This document shows positions 4,653 through 54,500 of a DNA stretch of 64,000 bases, in pieces. Made by a program: the position numbers and the translations under genes. Source of the DNA: Pratylenchus scribneri (lineage: Eukaryota; Nematoda; Chromadorea; Rhabditida; Pratylenchidae); contig JAQSEB010000012.1 of assembly GCA_030063045.1 (NCBI GenBank), positions 1,550,001 through 1,614,000 of the forward strand, in the 5' to 3' direction. Position 1 is the stretch's first letter, and every line of letters begins with the position of its first letter. The notes beneath the pieces were generated by a model. It was not told the origin of the DNA, searched no databases, and saw nothing but the letters and a program-made list of their open reading frames with translations.

Positions 4653-5534
4653 ATATATGCATTGCCTTCTGTGCTAATAGACATCGAAGAAATCGGGGTA
4701 AAAAATACATTTTTTAAAATCATTTTGCAAATTAAGGACTTCTGAAATTTGCGCAATAAATGATCAACGGAAGTAGCAGAATATGAAGACAAAACAATCA
4801 TAAACAAATTTGAGTTTTTTGATTATAAATTCCATCATTATTTTTGGACATCACATTTCATGATTTTGTCAATTCATTGATTAAATAAAACGATTATTTT
4901 AAGGGTAACATTTTGATGTTTGCTTTTTTACATTTGTATTTAATTTCATTTGCTTTAATGCTAATATTTTTTAATTTTCTTATCGTCCTTAAAATTTACA
5001 TCCCTTTTAATCAAACATTTGTTTTTTTTTCCGGAAAATGTTCGCCAAACATTTGTTTTTTCCGGAAAATGTTCGCCAAACATTTGTTTTTTTTCTGAAA
5101 AATGTTCGCCAAACTTTGTTTTTTTTTTCTCGAAAATGGTCACCAAACATTTGTTTTTTTTTTTCCGGAAAATGTTCGCCAAGCTTTGGTTTTTTTTTCA
5201 AAATGTTCGCCAAAACTTTGTTTTTTTTTTCAAAATGTTCGCCAAACATTTGTTTTTTTTTTCCGGAAAATGTTCGCCAAACAATAGCCTTAAAAATGTT
5301 TTATTTAAAACCTTAAAAATGTTTTATTTAAAAAGTCTTTTTGGCTTCTAAATGCAAAAACGATCCGAATTAGATACCTAAAAATCTTTTCCTCTTCCTT
5401 GTATGTAGTTCTTATGGTTTAGATTTTTTTTTCCACACAAAATATGGATAGAGAAAATTTTATTGACAGACAACATTAAAAATACTTATCAATTCTTTTA
5501 TCAAATTTATACTTCAGCGAATTTTTTTTATAAA
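4653..5534. other. intergenic with minisatellite
   Basis: No gene seen. About 5014-5285 holds eight imperfect units built on AATGTTCGCCAAACATTTG plus a T-run, the same unit as the large array at 20223-21015. Open frames on both strands here are repeat artefacts. Confidence 0.6.
5014..5285. repeat. minisatellite, 30-36-bp AATGTTCGCCAAACATTTG unit
   Basis: Eight tandem units with variable T-runs. This is a smaller, more diverged copy of the 20.2-21.0 kb array 15 kb away. Confidence 0.85.
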
Positions 5535-8500: not shown

Positions 8501-11500
8501 AATAAAATTATCAAAATCGATTAACGAGTTTAAACGGTGATAAATTGGGCACGAACCTCAAAGAAAAATTTGACCATTATTCATCCTGGGTCCCCGGACA
8601 CAAAAAAATTTAAATTAAAGGAAATAAATCTTTAAGAAATAAAGAATAACAAAATAGCCCAAAATTTAAGTATGAAAGGAATAGATCTATATACTAAAAG
8701 GAAAATAATTTCATGCATCTAATAGATTTAGGCTTTAGCGTCTTTTTATATAAAAGCTTGTTTTTTTTTGTCCATAAAATTATTAATCTTTTAGTGGGCC
8801 TCATTGGTTGAAGTGCTCGATCTTCCACCGGACAATCATCTCCACATTGCGGCCCATCCATGCTCATACACATTCCTCAGCACCGAACCACTTTCCAACA
8901 GTCAAACTGCCATTGGAGGAAATGCCGAAAATTGTCCGGTAAATATTTTGCGCATAATTAATTTTTAGAGGGCAAATTTATATTGATATAATTTGCAAAA
9001 ATAGGCAAAATATTGATGAAAATTTTTTAAAAAACGCTATATTTTATCAAAAATTTCGAAAAAATTATTCACATTTCAGAGTTTTTTCATTCATAAAATT
9101 TAAAATCCATTTCCAAAAATTTCTATACATATCAATAATTTTTCGAAAATTTTCCAAAATAAATTTTACATTAATTATTATTAAAAAATCACAAAATGAA
9201 CTTTTTCCTAAAATTTTTTCTATTGTTTTTTTCAAAAAATTTCTAATTTTTTCTCGAAAAAATTTCGACCGAAATTGAAAATTCATTAAAAATTTTTAAA
9301 ATTTGTTTTAATCAGATGAAATAATTTTGAATCTTTTTTATTAACCTCCAATTTTTGATTTTAATTTTTGAATTTAATTTTGAACATAAAATTTAAAAAT
9401 TTTTCACAGGTTTTCATTTGCCTCGACGAAAACACCTACATTTGCCCGACGGAATTTCGCACAATTTGTGGTGGATTTGTGGAGGGCGATTTGCAATCAT
9501 TGACACTGCCGGCGCAGACAAGAGGCCGGAATCCGGAATGGACAATGCCAGCGGCTAATTGGGACAAATTTAGTAAGTCCATTTTTAAAGGAAAATTTCA
9601 AAAAATTAATGATAATTTAAAATTATGGTTCGCGTAATAAATCGTACCCTCTGTTTAAAAATTAAATTTTTTTGACCCTAAATTGAGTTCTTGATCTTCA
9701 GTTCAAACAAATTTGAAATTGCCATTGATCATCTTTATTTTCCGACAGTTCCAAACAATTAAAAAATGAGTTAAAAAAAATTTTTTGGGCAAAAATTATA
9801 GGTACCCATTAGGGCCTATTTTTGAAATATACAAAAAAAAAAAATAAACAAAAAATCGTCAATACTAAATTCGGATTTTCTGCTGAAAACTAACAAGCTC
9901 ACTGTTATTTATAAATAATACATATTATAAGAAATTTAGTGATTTTAGGAGATAAAAAAATTTAAATGGTAAATGTTAACATTGGTAAAATTGTTTGATT
10001 GATAAAATTGAGACAAAATATTCTTAATTACCGATAGAAAAATATTAAAAATCAATCCAATCATTTTTAATATTTATACCAATTTCTCCCTTGAAGGAAC
10101 TGTGCTTCGGCATCTGATCAATCGATGCCCGGAATTGGCCAAACTCAGCCGCGGCGATTTGATCACCAGCCCAGAAATGTACACCCCAGACAGTCGTCCA
10201 TTGATTGGCGAATCGGACCAAGCACACGGATATTTTATCGCAAATGGAATGAATGCACAGGTGAGGGGAAAAAGGAAATCAACAGAATAAAAAAAAATTA
10301 TAAAAATTCGTTTCAAAATGTCAATTTTTTGAAGCCTTAAACTATACATATATTCGAAAATTTAACTTAACAATAATAAATACCTAATATTATGGAATGT
10401 GCCAAATTTCTATCTTTAAAAAGGAATATACATTTTATTCATAAAATCATTGTCGAATAAAATTGGAAGGGGTGAATTGACATTTAAGCACAAGGGGGGA
10501 TAATTGGGTACTAAAAAAAGCAATTATTATTTTAAGTTATTTTATATATGGCTAAAAATTTAGCCTACAGTTATAATATTAGATTAAGGGCGTGGAACAT
10601 AGAGAAATTAGGGACTAGGATGCGATATCAAATATGGTGTCCAATGATTGACCAAAATTGGCTTTATAAAGCAAGTTTAACTCTCAATCAGCTCTAGCCT
10701 AACCCAAAGTACGGTACATTTCAATTATTACCAAGTTAGATTGCCTAAAAATGATTAACAAATAAATAGCAAAAAATGATTAAATCTACCAAATCCACAG
10801 GGTTTATCATTTGCCGGCGGCCTTGGCTCCATTCTGGCCGATTGGATTTTGGCTGGTCAGCCGGGCCCTATGATCAGTGTTGACAAATTGGATGTTGCCC
10901 GTTTCCTCCCACTTCATTCAAATCCTCAATATCTCTATCAAAGAGTGCCGGAAGTGGCCAGCAACATTTTCAAGACATTGACTCCCACCCATCAATGCCA
11001 CACGGCACGCAATCTTCGTACATCGCCCATTCATCATTATTTACGAGATGCGGGCGCCGTTTTTGCCGAAAATATGGGCTATGAGAGGTGGGTGAGAGAA
11101 TTTGTTTGTAATAGGGTTAATTATCCGTGCGCGGATAATGAAATCATGGGTAAAGGGTAGTGCGGATAAACAAGGCACAGATAATGGACGGGTAGGCCAT
11201 TTTCGAAAATTATCCGCGGATACTACTCGTCCCGTACTCGTTTGGTATACTGTACATTTTTTGAAATTTGCTTACTCAAATTTCAAAAATTGCCAAAATA
11301 AATAAAATAAATCTTTTTTTCTTTACTAAAATCTATTTAATTATATTATATTTCTAAATGACCATGTTGGGCAGGGTTACCATTTCCTAAATAAAAAAAA
11401 ATCCGGCATATGGATCCAAAAAAATGGCAAAAGTCGGCTAAAAATAAGGTTTGAAGGTAGAGGCGGGTAGGCGGATAATGAAATCACGGGTAACGGGTAA

Positions 11501-20222: not shown

Positions 20223-21015
20223 TTTTATTTTCTTTCCGGAAAATGTTCGCCAAACATTTGTTTTCCTTTCCGTAAAATGTTCGCCAAACATTTGTTTTCC
20301 TTTCCGTAAAATGTTCGCCAAACATTTGTTTTCCTTTCCGTAAAATGTTCGCCAAACATTTGTTTTTTCTTTCCGGAAAATGTTCGCCAACATTTGTTTT
20401 TTCTTTCCGGAAAATGTTCGCCAAACATTTGTTTTTTCTTTCCGGAAAATGTTCGCCAAACATTTGTTTTTTCTTTCCGGAAAATGTTCGCCAAACATTT
20501 GTTTTTTCTTTCCGGAAAATGTTCCCCAAACATTTGTTTTTTCTTTCCGGAAAATGTTCCCCAAACATTTGTTTTTTCTTTCCGGAAAATGTTCGCCAAA
20601 CATTTGTTTTTTCTTTCCGGAAAATGTTCCCCAAACATTTGTTTTTTCTTTCCGGAAAATGTTCGCCAAACATTTGTTTTTTCTTTCCGGAAAATGTTCG
20701 CCAAACATTTGTTTTTTCTTTCCGGAAAATGTTCCCCAAACATTTGTTTTTTCTTTCCGGAAAATGTTCCCCAAACATTTTTTTTTCTTTCCGGAAATGT
20801 TCGCCAAACATTTGTTTTTTCTTTCTTGAAAATGTTCGCCAAACATTTGTTTTTTCTTTCCGGAAAATGTTCGCCAAACATTTGTTTTTTCTTTCCGGAA
20901 AATGTTCGCCAAACATTTGTTTTTTCTTTCCGGAAAATGTTCGCCAAACATTTGTTTTTTCTTTCCGGAAAATGTTCGCCAAACATTTGTTTTTTCTTTC
21001 CGGAAAATGCTCGCC
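20223..21015. repeat. 35-bp minisatellite, about 22 copies
   Basis: Regular 35-bp unit containing CCGGAAAATGTTCGCCAAAC and a T-rich half. Variants alternate TTCGCC with TTCCCC. Because 35 is not a multiple of 3 and the unit has no stop in any frame, all six frames stay open for 450-830 bp, producing repetitive pseudo-proteins. I see no start context or codon bias that supports translation. Confidence 0.95.
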
Positions 21016-21215
21016 AGTCTATTAAAAAAATTATTGAAGAAAATTTATCCAATATTTTCTATAAATTTATAATCACTAAATTATATTGTTTAATAAATAA
21101 AAATTAAAATAAAACATAATTAGAAACGACAGATAATATAAATTCAATTTCCATCTCTTTTTTTGGCAATTTTATTATAATGCAGTAGTTGAATATGGTG
21201 CAATCACAATTCCAT

Positions 21216-43408: not shown

Positions 43409-43512
43409 GCACTACCCAATTATGTTGGGCAATGCAATTCCAAAATTTATTCCAAACCACTCAGGGAAGAGGGTAGGAAATATTAAGAACCTCAAACTTG
43501 GGTAATTAAACC
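43409..43512 (-). ncRNA. SL1 spliced leader RNA
   Basis: On the minus strand the transcript begins with the 22-nt nematode SL1 leader (its first 20 bases, GGTTTAATTACCCAAGTTTG, then AG), followed by donor GTTCTT. An Sm site AAATTTTGG is at about 43438-43446, followed by the terminal stem-loop GCATTGCCCAA/TTGGGTAGTGC with one G-U-type mismatch. Length about 104 nt. The leader is expected to be trans-spliced to the 5' ends of many mRNAs. The donor GTTCTT differs from GTACTT in the other two copies. Confidence 0.92.
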
Positions 43513-43657
43513 GAAGACGAAAAGGAAAAGGGGGAATTTGATGGGTGAATGGGGTCAAATTGCAGATGCGTTGGAAGGGCACAAAAAGGCCCCAATTTCC
43601 CCACTCTTCCCAACCAAATAAACAGACAAAATGCTCTCTTATATTCAGCACACTGTC
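43513..43657 (-). promoter_or_regulatory. shared SL RNA gene upstream block, copy 2
   Basis: Complement of the block at 42820-42963, about 90 percent alike by eye, including CATCTGCAATTTGACCCCAT and GACAGTGTGCTGAATATAAG. Confidence 0.7.
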
Positions 43658-44029
43658 TTTTCTTTCCCTTTGAATTTATATTGCAATATTTTGTCCATCA
43701 ATTATTCCCTCAAATTTCCAACACCTTTGGCTGCTTGACGGACGCTACCTTATCGATATTTAAAAGCAGAGTTTTCAAAAAGTGTCAGTCAGGCAGTACA
43801 CGACTATCCATCCTCATCCTCATCCCACCCCGCAACCACCTTTTTCTCCTGCTGCAGAATATGAGGGCGATTTAGAGAAGAAGAATTTTGATGAGATGAG
43901 ATGAATGTGTGCAATTCACCTTCTTGAAAGGGAAAACATTTCTGCCTTCAAATATAAATGCATGAGGGCGGGAAAATGAGAAATATTGCTAGCCAAATTC
44001 AACAGAAAAAAGTGAGAGGGAGTGGAAAG
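43658..44029. other. spacer between SL RNA genes
   Basis: Nothing recognised. A C/T-rich stretch (CATCCTCATCCTCATCCCAC) lies at about 43808-43835. Confidence 0.4.
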
Positions 44030-44171
44030 CAGTGAGCTGAATATAACAGGGCATTTTGCCGTTTATTTGGTTGGGAAGAGTGTGGAAATTGAGGCCTTTT
44101 TGTGCCATTCCAACCCATCTGCAATTTGCCCCCATTCCCCCTCCAAATTCCCTCTTTTTCCTTATATCTTC
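44030..44171 (+). promoter_or_regulatory. shared SL RNA gene upstream block, copy 3
   Basis: Same block as copies 1 and 2, with GCAGTGAGCTGAATATAACA at its start and CATCTGCAATTTGCCCCCAT near the leader. Confidence 0.7.
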
Positions 44172-44272
44172 GGTTTAATTACCCAAGTTTAAGGTACTTA
44201 GCGTTTCCTACCCTCTTCCTCGAGTGGTTTGGAATAAATTTTGGGATTGCATTGCCTACTTTTGGGTGATGC
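44172..44272 (+). ncRNA. SL1-variant spliced leader RNA
   Basis: The leader matches SL1 for its first 19 bases and then reads AAG instead of GAG, a single change at leader position 20. Donor is GTACTT. An Sm site AAATTTTGG at about 44237-44245 is followed by a stem GCATTGCC/GGGTGATGC that closes with G-U pairs. The 3' half is clearly homologous to the SL1 gene at 43409-43512, so the two are tandem-duplicate relatives in opposite orientation. Variant SL1 leaders are known in plant-parasitic nematodes, so this could be functional. Confidence 0.85.
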
Positions 44273-44804: not shown

Positions 44805-45638
44805 AAGCCCCGAAGGGCGTCCAAAAATTGCACAAGGCACAGCTTTCGCTGGCCAAGGCGGGCAATTGGTATAAGTTTTCAATCAGCAATAACAGAACCT
44901 CGGCTAGGCCCGTGTCACGAAATTTGGGCACCGACGAACTTTGGGCACCACGAATTATGGGCACCGCGAACTTTGGGCACTGCGAATTATGGGCACCAAA
45001 TTGGAGAAATAGCCTAAATCTATCTTAAAATGGATTTAATCATTAATTAGATGAATTTAATGATCATTTAACGATCATTTTAGATGGTAAATTCGGGTTT
45101 TTCGGGCTTTTTCGAGACCAAATTTTAAAAAAAATTTTCTCAAAATCATGCAAATGATATATCAATCGACGCGTCTCAACGTGCTGATTATGATTCTGTT
45201 ATTGGTTTATCAAATAAAATTAAAATTTCAAAAATATAACACTTTAATTTGATATGATACTAAAATGGACATAACTATTTTATTTTTAAACTTAATGTAA
45301 AATCCAATAACAGAATCATAATCAGCACGTTGAGACGCGTCGATTGATATATCATTTGCATGATTTTGAGAAAATTTTTTTTTAAAATTTGGTCTCGAAA
45401 AAGCCAGAAAAACCGAATTTACCATCTAAAATGATCGTTAAATGATCATTAAATTCATCTAATTAATGATTAAATCCATTTTAAATAGATTTAGGCTATT
45501 TCTCCAATTTGGTGCCCATAATTCGCGGTGCCCAAAGTCCGCGGTGCCCATAATTCGCGGTGCCCAAAGTTCGTCGGTGCCCAAATTTCGTGGAACCGCT
45601 AGGCCTCATTGGTCTCTGTATTGCCCGAGCGCAAGGCT
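44805..45638 (-). pseudogene. U4 snRNA gene split by a transposon
   Basis: On the minus strand, 45638-45598 reads AGCCTTGCGCTCGGGCAATA then CAGAGACCAATGAGG, matching the U4 5' stem and the first half of the k-turn loop. The sequence resumes at 44910 with CCGAGG, TTATTGCTGATTGAAAACTT, a central domain, the Sm site CAATTTTTGG and a final hairpin GCCCTTCGGGGC, ending at about 44805. Between the two halves lies a 687-bp foldback element with GCTAGGCC duplicated on each side. Leaving out the element and one copy of the duplication gives a full-length U4 of about 147 nt. The insertion falls in the internal loop that binds the 15.5K/Snu13 protein, so this copy should be inactive; an intact U4 must exist elsewhere. 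Confidence 0.85.
44911..45597. mobile_element. 687-bp foldback transposon inside the U4 gene
   Basis: Arms of about 285 bp are near-perfect complements. The outer part of each arm repeats GGGCACCGCGAATTAT and GGGCACCGCGAACTTT-like units; the inner part has ATATATCAATCGACGCGTCTC. An AT-rich spacer of about 110 bp lies between them. GCTAGGCC is repeated exactly at 44903-44910 and 45598-45605. No ORF. High arm identity suggests a recent insertion. Confidence 0.9.
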
Positions 45639-46104
45639 AAATTCAACCATCAAAAAAAGGAACTTTATTCAACCCAAGGCGAGAAAATTGAATGGGAAGC
45701 AGCCAGCCAGTTGGGTAGAGTATTTGTCACTGCTATTCCTCAATTTTATTTTTCTCATTCCATCATAGCGGTTGATGGACCTTTGCGTCTAATTGCTTCA
45801 CATTTACTACACTATTTCTTTCATTGTCTGATGAGCTGCCAAAAGGAGAAGGGGGTGGGGAAGGCAGAGCAGTAGTAGTGGAAGTGAGGAAAAGGGAAAA
45901 GGAATTTCAACTGTCTTTTCTATTTTTGTTCATCTCTCGAGTCCATTCTCTTCTTTTTTCTGTGACAGATTTGGGTAGCGAAATAGCTTTCTATTTACGT
46001 CACTTCCTTCATTTTCTACCGAATTTTGCTGCCCCATTTGGTAAATGTATAACATCAATAATTTCTTAAAAAGAATATTTAAATTAATCTTTTCGCCGGT
46101 TGTG
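45639..46104. promoter_or_regulatory. divergent U4/U2 intergenic promoter region
   Basis: 466 bp separate the 5' ends of U4 (minus) and U2 (plus), so both promoters should lie here. Candidate shared words are TGCTTCCCATTCAATTTT (minus, about 53-62 bp before U4) and TTGCTGCCCCATTTGG (plus, about 66-78 bp before U2). No TATA box at either expected position. Confidence 0.45.
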
Positions 46105-46291
46105 CATCGCTTCTCGGCCTTTTGGCTAAGATCAATTGTTAAATATCTGTTCTTTATGGTTTAATCACCATAATAAGTCCTACCGGACTTAAATTTGATT
46201 ATCCAATTTTTGGAAAAGCGTAAAGACTCCCAGCTTGCTGGTTCTTGACGGCGCGTCGGCCTGGTTTTGCACTAGCCTCCGGGATCGGCGC
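46105..46291 (+). ncRNA. U2 snRNA with altered branch-site-pairing segment
   Basis: The first 28 bases, from ATCGCTTCTCGGCCTTTTGG to CTAAGATC, are those of canonical U2, including the part that pairs with U6. Further on, ATCTGTTCTT, stem IIa (TTATGG/CCATAA), stem IIb (AGTCC/GGACT), the Sm site CAATTTTTGG and stems III and IV (ending CTCCGGGATCGGCGC) all occur in order, about 187 nt in total as in C. elegans. The invariant branch-pairing GTAGTA is replaced by TAAATA, with two extra bases just before it. Stems keep pairing despite sequence differences from other nematodes. It may be a variant gene or a young pseudogene. Confidence 0.85.
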
Positions 46292-46728
46292 TTAAAATGG
46301 TTCTAAAAATTAGAAGCAGTATGTAATTGGACAAAATCAACAATTATGTGCTATTAAATTAAATGATGAATTTTTTGTAATTTTTTAGAAGTTTTATTGA
46401 AATTTTTTCCATTAATTTTTGTAGATGAAAAGAAAATTGATTCTGATCCATAGCGGAAAAATCTTGAACTTATTTTTCGATGGATAAAATTGGAAAGGAA
46501 TTACCTGTGAAATGAGATGTTCAATTTCGAGAATTTTCATCTTATTTTCATTTATTTTTTTTATCGTATTCGTATTTGCCTTTTATAAATTTAAAATATT
46601 ATAGTTTAAAAATCGATGAATATTTGATTTCTATTGTGAATAAATAAAGGCGCTTATTTTTTAATTGTATTTCAAATTTTTTTTATAAAAAATTTTTTTA
46701 AATATCAATCTAAGAGAATTAAATATTT
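46292..46728. other. spacer between U2 and stem-bulge RNA
   Basis: AT-rich; nothing recognised. Confidence 0.4.
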
Positions 46729-51500: not shown

Positions 51501-54500
51501 TATTAAATGCTTGTGAACAATCAAATTCAGAATTTTCTTTAATCGAAACTATAGCATTCATTCACCGTTTTAAATATGGAAACTGTTTCTTTCATCCATC
51601 CAAGCATAGGTCGGCAAGGGGGCTGGAAAACTATCACCACTTTGCGCTTTTCCTAAAAATTTTTCCCGCGGCAGCGAAAAATTTGGTCTAAAATGGCCCT
51701 GATAAGGGAAAATTTAAGCCAAAAATGGCCCTGATAAGGGAAAATGTAAGCCAAAAATGGCCCTGATAAGGGAAAATGTAAGCCAAAAATGGCCCTTATA
51801 AGGGAAAATTTAAGCCAAAAATGGCCCTGATAAGGGAAAATTTAAGCCAAAAATGGCCCTGATAAGGGAAAATTTAAGCCAAAAATGGCCCTTATAAGGG
51901 AAAATTTAAGCCAAAAATGGCCCTGATAAGGGAAAATTTAAGCCAAAAATGGCCCTGATAAGGGAAAATGTAAGCCAAAAATGGCCCTTATAAGGGAAAA
52001 TTTAAGCCAAAAATGGCCCTGATAAGGGAAAATGTAAGCCAAAAATGGCTCTTATAAGGGAAAATTTAAGCCAAAAATGGCCCTGATAAGGGAAAATGTA
52101 AGCCAAAAATGGCCCTTATAAGGGAAAATTTAAGCCAAAAATGGCCCTGATAAGGGAAAATGTAAGCCAAAAATGGCCCTTATAAGGGAAAATTTATGCC
52201 AAAAATGGCCCTGATAAGGGAAAATGTAAGCCAAAAATGGTCCTGATAAGGGAAAATTTAAGCCAAAATTAGCCGCGCAGCGAAAAATTGGAGCCAAAAT
52301 TAACCGCGCAGCGCAAAATTGGAGCCAAAATTAACCGCGCAGCGCAAAATTTTAATAATTTCGACAAAATTGGCCAAAATAAGGCAAAAATTGGCCAAAA
52401 TAAGGCTTTATAAGGCTTTTTCGGAGATAAGGCTTTTGTAAGGGAAAATCCCAAAAATAAGGGAAACCCTTAAAAATAAGGCATTCTGAGATCCCTGAGC
52501 GGGGCGTAAGGGAAGTGGGTGTAAGGAATACGTGGGCCAAAGAAATACATGGGAAGGGTTTATATTAGGGTTAATTATCCGTTGACGGGACGGGTACACG
52601 GGCAGGGTATTCGCGCGATTTTGGGCTAATTATCCGTCCCGCCTACCCGTCCCGTATTTTTCTCATTACCCGTTACCCGCGCATTTTCTACCCGTCCCGT
52701 AATGTTAAAAAGTAACCCTAAATTTGGGCATTTGGGGAACAAAAATTTTTCACAACTTCCCAAAAATTTAAAAGGGCATCATCAATGCGTTCGATTTGCT
52801 TAGTTGGTTAGTGCTTGACTTACATTTTTGGTACTATCGTTCTAATCCCAGCAGCGGAAAATCATTTAATTTAATATTTTTCTGCCTAAAATGAATTAAT
52901 TTTGTTGATAAAAGTATTGAGAAAAATTAGATTTTTTAAAAGCATTTTTTAACAATTTTAAAAGTATAATAAATTTTGTTGAGAATATGCGTTAAACATT
53001 TTTAATATTTTTTAGTCTTTCTAAAAAATGACCTAGAGATCAGGGCTGGGCAAAATCGAAAATTTTTAACGGTACATGGTAACGGTAAACAGTAGAGTCT
53101 AAAAATACGGTCACGATAACGGTACGGTACCCAGCCCTGCTAGAGAAGAGATAGAGAATTCTGCTAATAAAACAATATGGATAAATGATAAATTGAAGCT
53201 AATTGTGCAGAAAAAAAATTTGCTTGTAAAAAACCTAACAAAATTTTTTGCGTTCGCGCCAATCGGCGCTCGCAAAATACTACTAATATAAATTTTTCGA
53301 TCATGACAAAAAAATTTTCAATAAAAATGCTCTATGCTTTTGATCACTCCTTTGCTTTTTCATAGCAAAATTTGAGACAACCATAACCAATATGATAAAT
53401 TATCAAAAATCTGATTCCATCAGAATCGTTTTCAGCATTTCAATTTGCCCCTAAAAATTGTCTTTTTTAAAAAATTTTATTCTTTATCAATTTCTGCAAT
53501 TTTTTGTCAGATTGCAGTGCATTCGATTTTATGAATCAAAAAATTAAATAAAAATTGAAAAGAATAAGAATTCAATAATAATAAAAATTAGGAAAAAATG
53601 ATTCTTCAGATTATGAATGATATTTATTTTGCCGATTTTAAAAATTTTATTAAACGAGTTTCAAAAAAAATGCCTTAAAGGGCACAGGACGGGTAGTATC
53701 CGCGGATAATTTTCGAAAATGGCCTACCCGTCCCTTATCCGTGCCTTGATTATCCGCACTATCCGTTACCCGTGACTTCACTATCCGTGCACGGATAATT
53801 AACCCTAGTTTATATGTTGGGGACGTTTGTAAAAACGCGCCAGGGCGCGTTCGACCTACCCTAGGGCTATGGATTTTGGAATTATTTAGAGATTATAGTC
53901 ATGCTCGCTTCGCTCGCCAGCAATTTTAGGTCGTGTGCAGGCTCGCTAGTTCGTGGGCAGGCTCGCTTCGCTCGCCAGCCCTTCTTTAGGTCGTGTGCAG
54001 GCTCGCTTCGCTCGCCGGCTTTCTTAAGGTCGTGTGCGAATTTTAGAACTGGTTTGTAAACCGATTTTGATCAAATCACAAAACTATTATTAAATTCGAA
54101 TTATTCATATTCGAAAACCTCCAAATCCCAATTTTCACCTCTCTCTGACAAAATTTCATTTTTGGACTTTTTTGAACCGGTTTGCAAACCGGTTTCGACG
54201 GAATCACAAAACTATTATTAAATTCGAAATCCTCATAGTCGAAAACCCCCAAGTCTTAATTTTCACCTAATTCTGATTAAATTTTCATTTTTGACATTTT
54301 TGAACCGGTTTGCAAACCACCTTTTACGCGGGCACCAAAACCAATGTTATTTTTGAATTCTCCATACTCGAAAACCCCCAAATCCCAAATTTCACCTCAT
54401 TCTGACAAAATTTCCATTTTCGATATTTTTGAACCGGTTTGCAAACCACTCCTTGCGCTGATCAAAAAACTATTTCCATTTTTGAATTCTCCATATCTGA

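Follow-up and report, generated by a model that had tools for sequence, protein, structure and literature searches.

A near-palindromic element, most likely a Phantom-type Mutator derivative, interrupts one member of the U4 snRNA gene family of Pratylenchus scribneri

One copy of the U4 snRNA gene of the root-lesion nematode Pratylenchus scribneri is interrupted by a 687-bp near-palindrome, and we are confident that it became so when a non-autonomous Phantom-type element entered the 5' stem-loop of this member of a multi-copy family by cut-and-paste, duplicating 8 bp of target. The window, as we call the whole stretch of 64,000 nucleotides that was analysed (C12:1550001-1614000; C and L numbers stand for contigs and loci), forms part of the published HiFi assembly of the species, which holds 276 contigs and 227.24 Mb at 32.8% GC (PMC10138993). 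Genome searches covered 227,248,964 bases in those 276 contigs. Coordinates of the features are collected in Table 1.

Table 1. Features of the interrupted U4 locus and its insert (positions within the window)
Feature	Position	Strand	Evidence or remark
U4 3' piece (nt 34-137)	44807..44910	-	Rfam RF00015 and identity to intact copies
Target-site duplication, copy 1, GCTAGGCC	44903..44910	.	exact; present once in L012, the intact C121 locus
Foldback (near-palindromic) non-autonomous MULE-type element, 687 bp	44911..45597	.	inverted arms, fold, genome copies, ends common with L076
Type A end (CGTGTCACG; CGTGT-type), then 16-17 bp tandem units ending GGGCACC (GGGCACT once)	44911..44997	+	
Type B end (GGTTCCACG on the minus strand; GGTTCC-type), then tandem units ending GGGCACC	45511..45597	-	
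Target-site duplication, copy 2, GCTAGGCC	45598..45605	.	exact
U4 5' piece (nt 1-41)	45598..45638	-	joined with the 3' piece equals 7 intact U4 copies, 137 nt
Conserved block 43-70 nt upstream of U4	45681..45708	-	window aligned with the 17 best U4 copies
U2 snRNA gene, full-length, head to head with U4	46106..46298	+	Rfam RF00004, 139.5 bits

The interrupted gene runs on the minus strand from 45638 to 44807, and the insert is flanked on both sides by an exact 8-bp duplication, GCTAGGCC. When the flanks were joined across one duplicate, they gave a 137-nt U4 that is letter-identical to seven intact copies elsewhere in the genome (L003-L009; 106.2 bits each). In its interrupted state the gene scored 49.2 bits over 44924-44807 against the Rfam U4 model (RF00015, gathering cut-off 46), a low score that reflects the position of the true 5' end on the other side of the 687-bp insert. 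The 3' piece keeps the U4/U6 pairing segment, the Sm site (44821-44829) and the 3' hairpin, and outside the insertion the gene is intact, with 0 differences in 137 positions from the seven copies. The duplication covers U4 nt 34-41, GGCCUAGC. Read against the human k-turn, this stretch comprises GG, the CCUAG pentaloop and the opening C of the stem to which the 15.5K protein binds, and thus the k-turn loop with its closing bases. The 5' stem-loop that holds the k-turn is discontinuous: it breaks off after nt 41 and resumes, past the insert, with a repeat of nt 34-41.

A sequence-only reading of this DNA had proposed that a foldback transposon split a U4 gene at its k-turn loop, that the bases duplicated exactly at the junctions lie inside the 15.5K-binding 5' stem-loop, and that the remainder of the gene looked undamaged. 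The joined flanks and the inverted arms of the insert bear this out, the k-turn assignment by human analogy, and the interrupted copy scores above the cut-off of the Rfam U4 model, against which it had suggested folding the flanks. Both halves of U4 do flank the insert as it described; it gave no strand for the gene, and its start coordinate for the locus falls 2 bases outside U4.

The same reading had suggested a search for other U4 copies, which returned at least 30 matches genome-wide, at least 27 of them above the RF00015 cut-off and the window's own copy counted; the figure of 30 is a lower bound, because scoring was confined to the 41 best of 25,720 first-look candidates. Beyond the seven copies among these that are identical to the joined window U4, ten more (L001, L002 and L010-L017) differ from it by 1-2 substitutions. 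Together these 17 (L001-L017), all located elsewhere in the genome, are the 17 scored matches of at least 101 bits; the other 13 of the at least 30 comprise the window's own U4 and 12 that are diverged or truncated. Since the genome contains several decayed or truncated copies, the window's U4 could be imagined to have been a dead pseudogene already when the element arrived, with nothing left to disrupt. This is very unlikely, as the joined copy matches the seven intact ones at every position and has kept the conserved upstream block, which is presumably a U4 promoter element (a putative PSE).

Several of the other U4 matches have structures of their own. L030 (C64:1072078-1072191) is a U4 with a clean deletion of nt 43-65, its nt 1-42 and 66-137 being identical; the deletion breaks one base past the stretch that is duplicated at the window insertion, and could be an excision scar or a coincidence. 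L023, L024, L026 and L027 (on C95, C25, C198 and C48, respectively) are truncated U4s that extend over about nt 1-63 and then pass into a common foreign sequence starting TTTAATTTTCT; the contig of each also holds a full U4, and the type may represent either a pseudogene that was duplicated long ago or a U4-like RNA in shortened form. L028 (C95:174610-174748) carries U4 nt 50-132 at 98.8%, with unrelated sequence in place of the 5' part. As a second transposon-cut U4, L028 was considered and rejected: its match to U4 is confined to nt 50-132, and its 1.5-kb flanks contained no 5' piece. L023, which holds nt 1-63 and shares both contig and strand with L028, was rejected as the other half of L028 because it sits on the wrong side.

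An empty site, which had been suggested for a search in other strains, was found within the same assembly, at a syntenic locus on C121 (L012; U4 at 201359-201495, 104.6 bits). The flanks of the insert aligned to this locus as two blocks of ~1.5 kb that overlap by exactly 8 bases, and the C121 U4 is intact at the exact empty site. An overlap of 8 bases inside U4 alone arises with any intact U4 copy; C121 was counted as the same locus because the flanking DNA, and not U4 itself, matches, with 87% identity over 1001 bases on the U2 side and 77% over 1005 bases on the far side. Farther out, an exon 34 kb from the window U4 finds its match ~40 kb from U4 on C121 and ~44 kb from U4 on C145, in an orientation that fits, and a fourth copy of this exon lies on C201. 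The C145 locus (L017) is also without the insert, its matching flanks being shorter, and C12:956k (L015) is a further paralogue that lacks it. On C201, a 2.9-kb stretch that resembles the U4 3' flank (L077) contained no U4 or U2 match.

The head-to-head U4 and U2 genes of the window are spaced ~470 bp apart (45638-46106), and nine other places in the genome match from beside U4 into U2 (one each on C121, C95, C25, C202, C235, C129 and C64, and two on C48). Just beyond the U4 3' end lies a second inverted-repeat element (43428-44256), with 203-nt arms that are 88% complementary; it is common to the window and the C121 locus, and its relatives, dispersed through the genome, occur near several U4 loci as well (74 rows of matches). 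The window further contains tandem arrays at 20228-21016 (35-bp unit, 22.7 copies, 97% matches) and 51690-52268 (32-bp unit, 18.1 copies, 94% matches), with a related, less regular array at 5012-5283. Its GC content is 27-35% in 4-kb steps, and Pfam searches with nine of its open reading frames matched three (FAO_M, GCV_T and GCV_T_C). A dehydrogenase-like exon with the FAO_M domain (10700-11300) has near copies of 90-93% identity on C145, C201, C121 and C44, exceeding the two copies expected of a diploid assembly that is described as purged (PMC10138993).

Absence of the insertion from the C121 homologue means that it is younger than the separation of the two loci, or that it was lost from C121 without trace. 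Between the window element and its nearest sibling (L032) identity is 98.4%; the window element carries five private differences in an alignment of ten of the 17 copies that were read, and the U4 pieces carry none in 137 positions. We infer a recent insertion, which is the natural reading, and the earlier suggestion that the hit may be recent agrees with the sibling identity, the few private differences and the empty C121 site. U4 identity does not date the hit, as gene conversion among U4 copies before it would keep the gene young. The assembled DNA came from 500 pooled worms by an ultra-low-input HiFi workflow (PMC10138993), and because of this pooling the insertion may be polymorphic. The precise empty site offers a handy marker of recent transposition in Pratylenchus scribneri.

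Transcription of the interrupted copy may still start, because the block 43-70 nt upstream is retained. A transcript of it would reach 832 nt, and its k-turn would be split, for which reason this U4 copy has likely lost its function and would no longer yield working U4. In the fold of the 832-nt product, which is a thermodynamic prediction without protein, eight C-stem pairs were predicted at probabilities of 0.52-0.95 and both of the k-turn-closing GG:CC pairs at 0.048. The loss would be tolerated, because 17 other U4 copies lie within 2 substitutions (among the at least 30 matches). The event is a commonplace insertion into one copy of a gene family, with little weight for U4 biology because many near-identical copies remain; it would also cleanly remove one snRNA gene copy, the empty site of which is found in the same assembly. 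A literature search of titles and abstract openings found no report of a U4 gene split by a MITE.

As RNA or single strand, the insert is predicted to fold at -501.4 kcal/mol; 20 shuffles averaged -143.5 kcal/mol. With one such long hairpin inside the transcribed unit and the upstream block kept, the U4 promoter might drive transcription of the palindrome as hairpin RNA, which would supply small-RNA silencing directed at the transposon family, and a disrupted snRNA gene would then be a source of small RNAs against its own transposon family. Promoters of snRNA genes, however, normally yield short transcripts that end near the gene, so that the 832-nt product may not be made, and we give this possibility only a slight chance. 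Simple interruption of the gene by a transposon is the reading that we retain.

The arms of the insert are 96% complementary in the outer 114 nt and 90% complementary in the inner 201 nt, in line with the earlier description of a 687-bp palindromic element. The family to which it belongs is dispersed over at least 40 places in the genome (83 rows of matches, 68-100% identity), and may be larger, because scoring covered 40 of the 461 candidates. Exact patterns of the two ends matched 17 and 18 genome sites, respectively, and reversed controls matched 0. Seventeen copies were read, namely 16 of the at least 40 places (the window's included) and the long relative L076. One A-type and one B-type end were present in all 17, with no more than 3 mismatches in 22. 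Eleven of the 17 are bordered by exact duplications of 8-9 bp and two by a duplication with a single mismatch (L035 and L054); the remaining copies read (L040, L041, L042 and L059) had no duplication.

An element that targets snRNA genes specifically, with U4 as its home site, would explain its presence in a multicopy snRNA gene, which is the kind of target described for Dada transposons (PMC3706591). The other copies make this extremely unlikely. No Rfam RNA gene occurred in the 59,064 bases made up of the 16 other copies read and their flanks, and no element ends lie within 1.5 kb of any of the 29 other U4 matches (among at least 30 loci, only the window's own has them). The duplications at the other copies are unlike U4; of the 11 exact ones, eight are at least two-thirds A+T, the exceptions including the U4 site and the L076 site (GGTAGGTC). 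Dada duplications are moreover given as 6-7 bp, and its U6 and U1 families are described as having no terminal inverted repeats (PMC3706591). On the copies read the element shows no preference for U4, which looks to be a chance target, since the 16 others that were read all sit outside Rfam-known RNA genes. That the junctions are an artefact of assembly or amplification, long palindromes being hard to amplify and assemble and the workflow having been one of ultra-low-input HiFi sequencing (PMC10138993), is scarcely credible in view of a perfect 8-bp duplication at known-repeat borders and of the same borders at ten other copies with exact duplications, such borders being predicted by transposition and not by chimera.

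A candidate for the source of the transposase is L076 (C5:2058162-2062030), in which 3869 bp lie between one pair of ends of the same type; it has 118-nt inverted repeats (99%) and an 8-bp duplication, GGTAGGTC. Pfam searches with six single-exon pieces of L076 identified a MULE transposase domain in one (PF10551, 41.9 bits; cut-off 27.6). A FLYWCH finger (PF04500, 30.4 bits; cut-off 23.6) was matched when two exons were joined by eye; the exons apart gave no FLYWCH match at E <= 0.01, and the assignment hinges on the splice point so picked. The MULE piece had 12 matches in the genome, comprising itself at 100% and others at 26-40% identity. L076 and the 687-bp element have ~88 bp in common at each end (98%) and no long stretch inside, so it is through these ends that the L076 transposase is linked to the short element. 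From its sequence, L076 is a candidate autonomous relative and the likely engine of the family, whose protein may mobilise the short elements. A Phantom-type transposase of the L076 kind would act on the 687-bp element via the common ends, and the element would then insert in the U4 5' stem-loop by cut-and-paste, duplicating 8 bp. Phantom-type transposases are described as combining FLYWCH and MULE domains (PMC3169594), and by that published description the element is most likely a Phantom-type Mutator (MULE) derivative. It resembles Phantom in the FLYWCH and MULE domains of its relative L076 and in its duplications, here 8-9 bp, and differs in that the window copy encodes no transposase.

Three other systems bear comparison. 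Foldback (FB) elements of Drosophila have short tandem units within their long inverted repeats, and by this description the present element is similar to them. The insertion inside a multicopy snRNA gene recalls the Dada transposons, but here the duplications are 8-9 bp, the sites varied and the inverted repeats long, so that identity with Dada is ruled out by duplication length, termini and targeting; Dada is described as targeting multicopy small RNA genes at a fixed site (PMC3706591). The closest parallel is in Meloidogyne, in an account that also names the FB elements: Tm1, a Mutator/Foldback family, has an A1 motif at one end and A2 at the other, inverted repeats of short tandem units, duplications of 8-10 bp without a clear target consensus, MITE-like members and one member with a FLYWCH-MULE transposase (PMC3169594). 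Asymmetric ends on inverted repeats of tandem units (17 of the 17 copies read for ends), duplications of similar length and a FLYWCH-MULE relative are common to both. The sequences themselves differ, Tm1 having the ends CGGTTAA and CCTACCC and 14-bp units of the type CGATTCAGTATCGC (PMC3169594), whereas the ends here are CGTGTCA and GGTTCCA and the units of 16-17 bp end in GGGCACC. Pairs of the Tm1 motif C unit had 0 matches in the genome as an exact pattern, a weak test made with the 15-bp form only, and 0 with the 14-bp consensus of both species at up to 2 mismatches. Membership in Tm1 itself was rejected on these two grounds, the end sequences and the unit pairs. This documents a Phantom/foldback family of Tm1-like build, together with a candidate autonomous relative, in a genome without detectable Tm1 units, and we file the element, on its end and unit sequences, as a new family of the Tm1-like kind that stands apart from Tm1.
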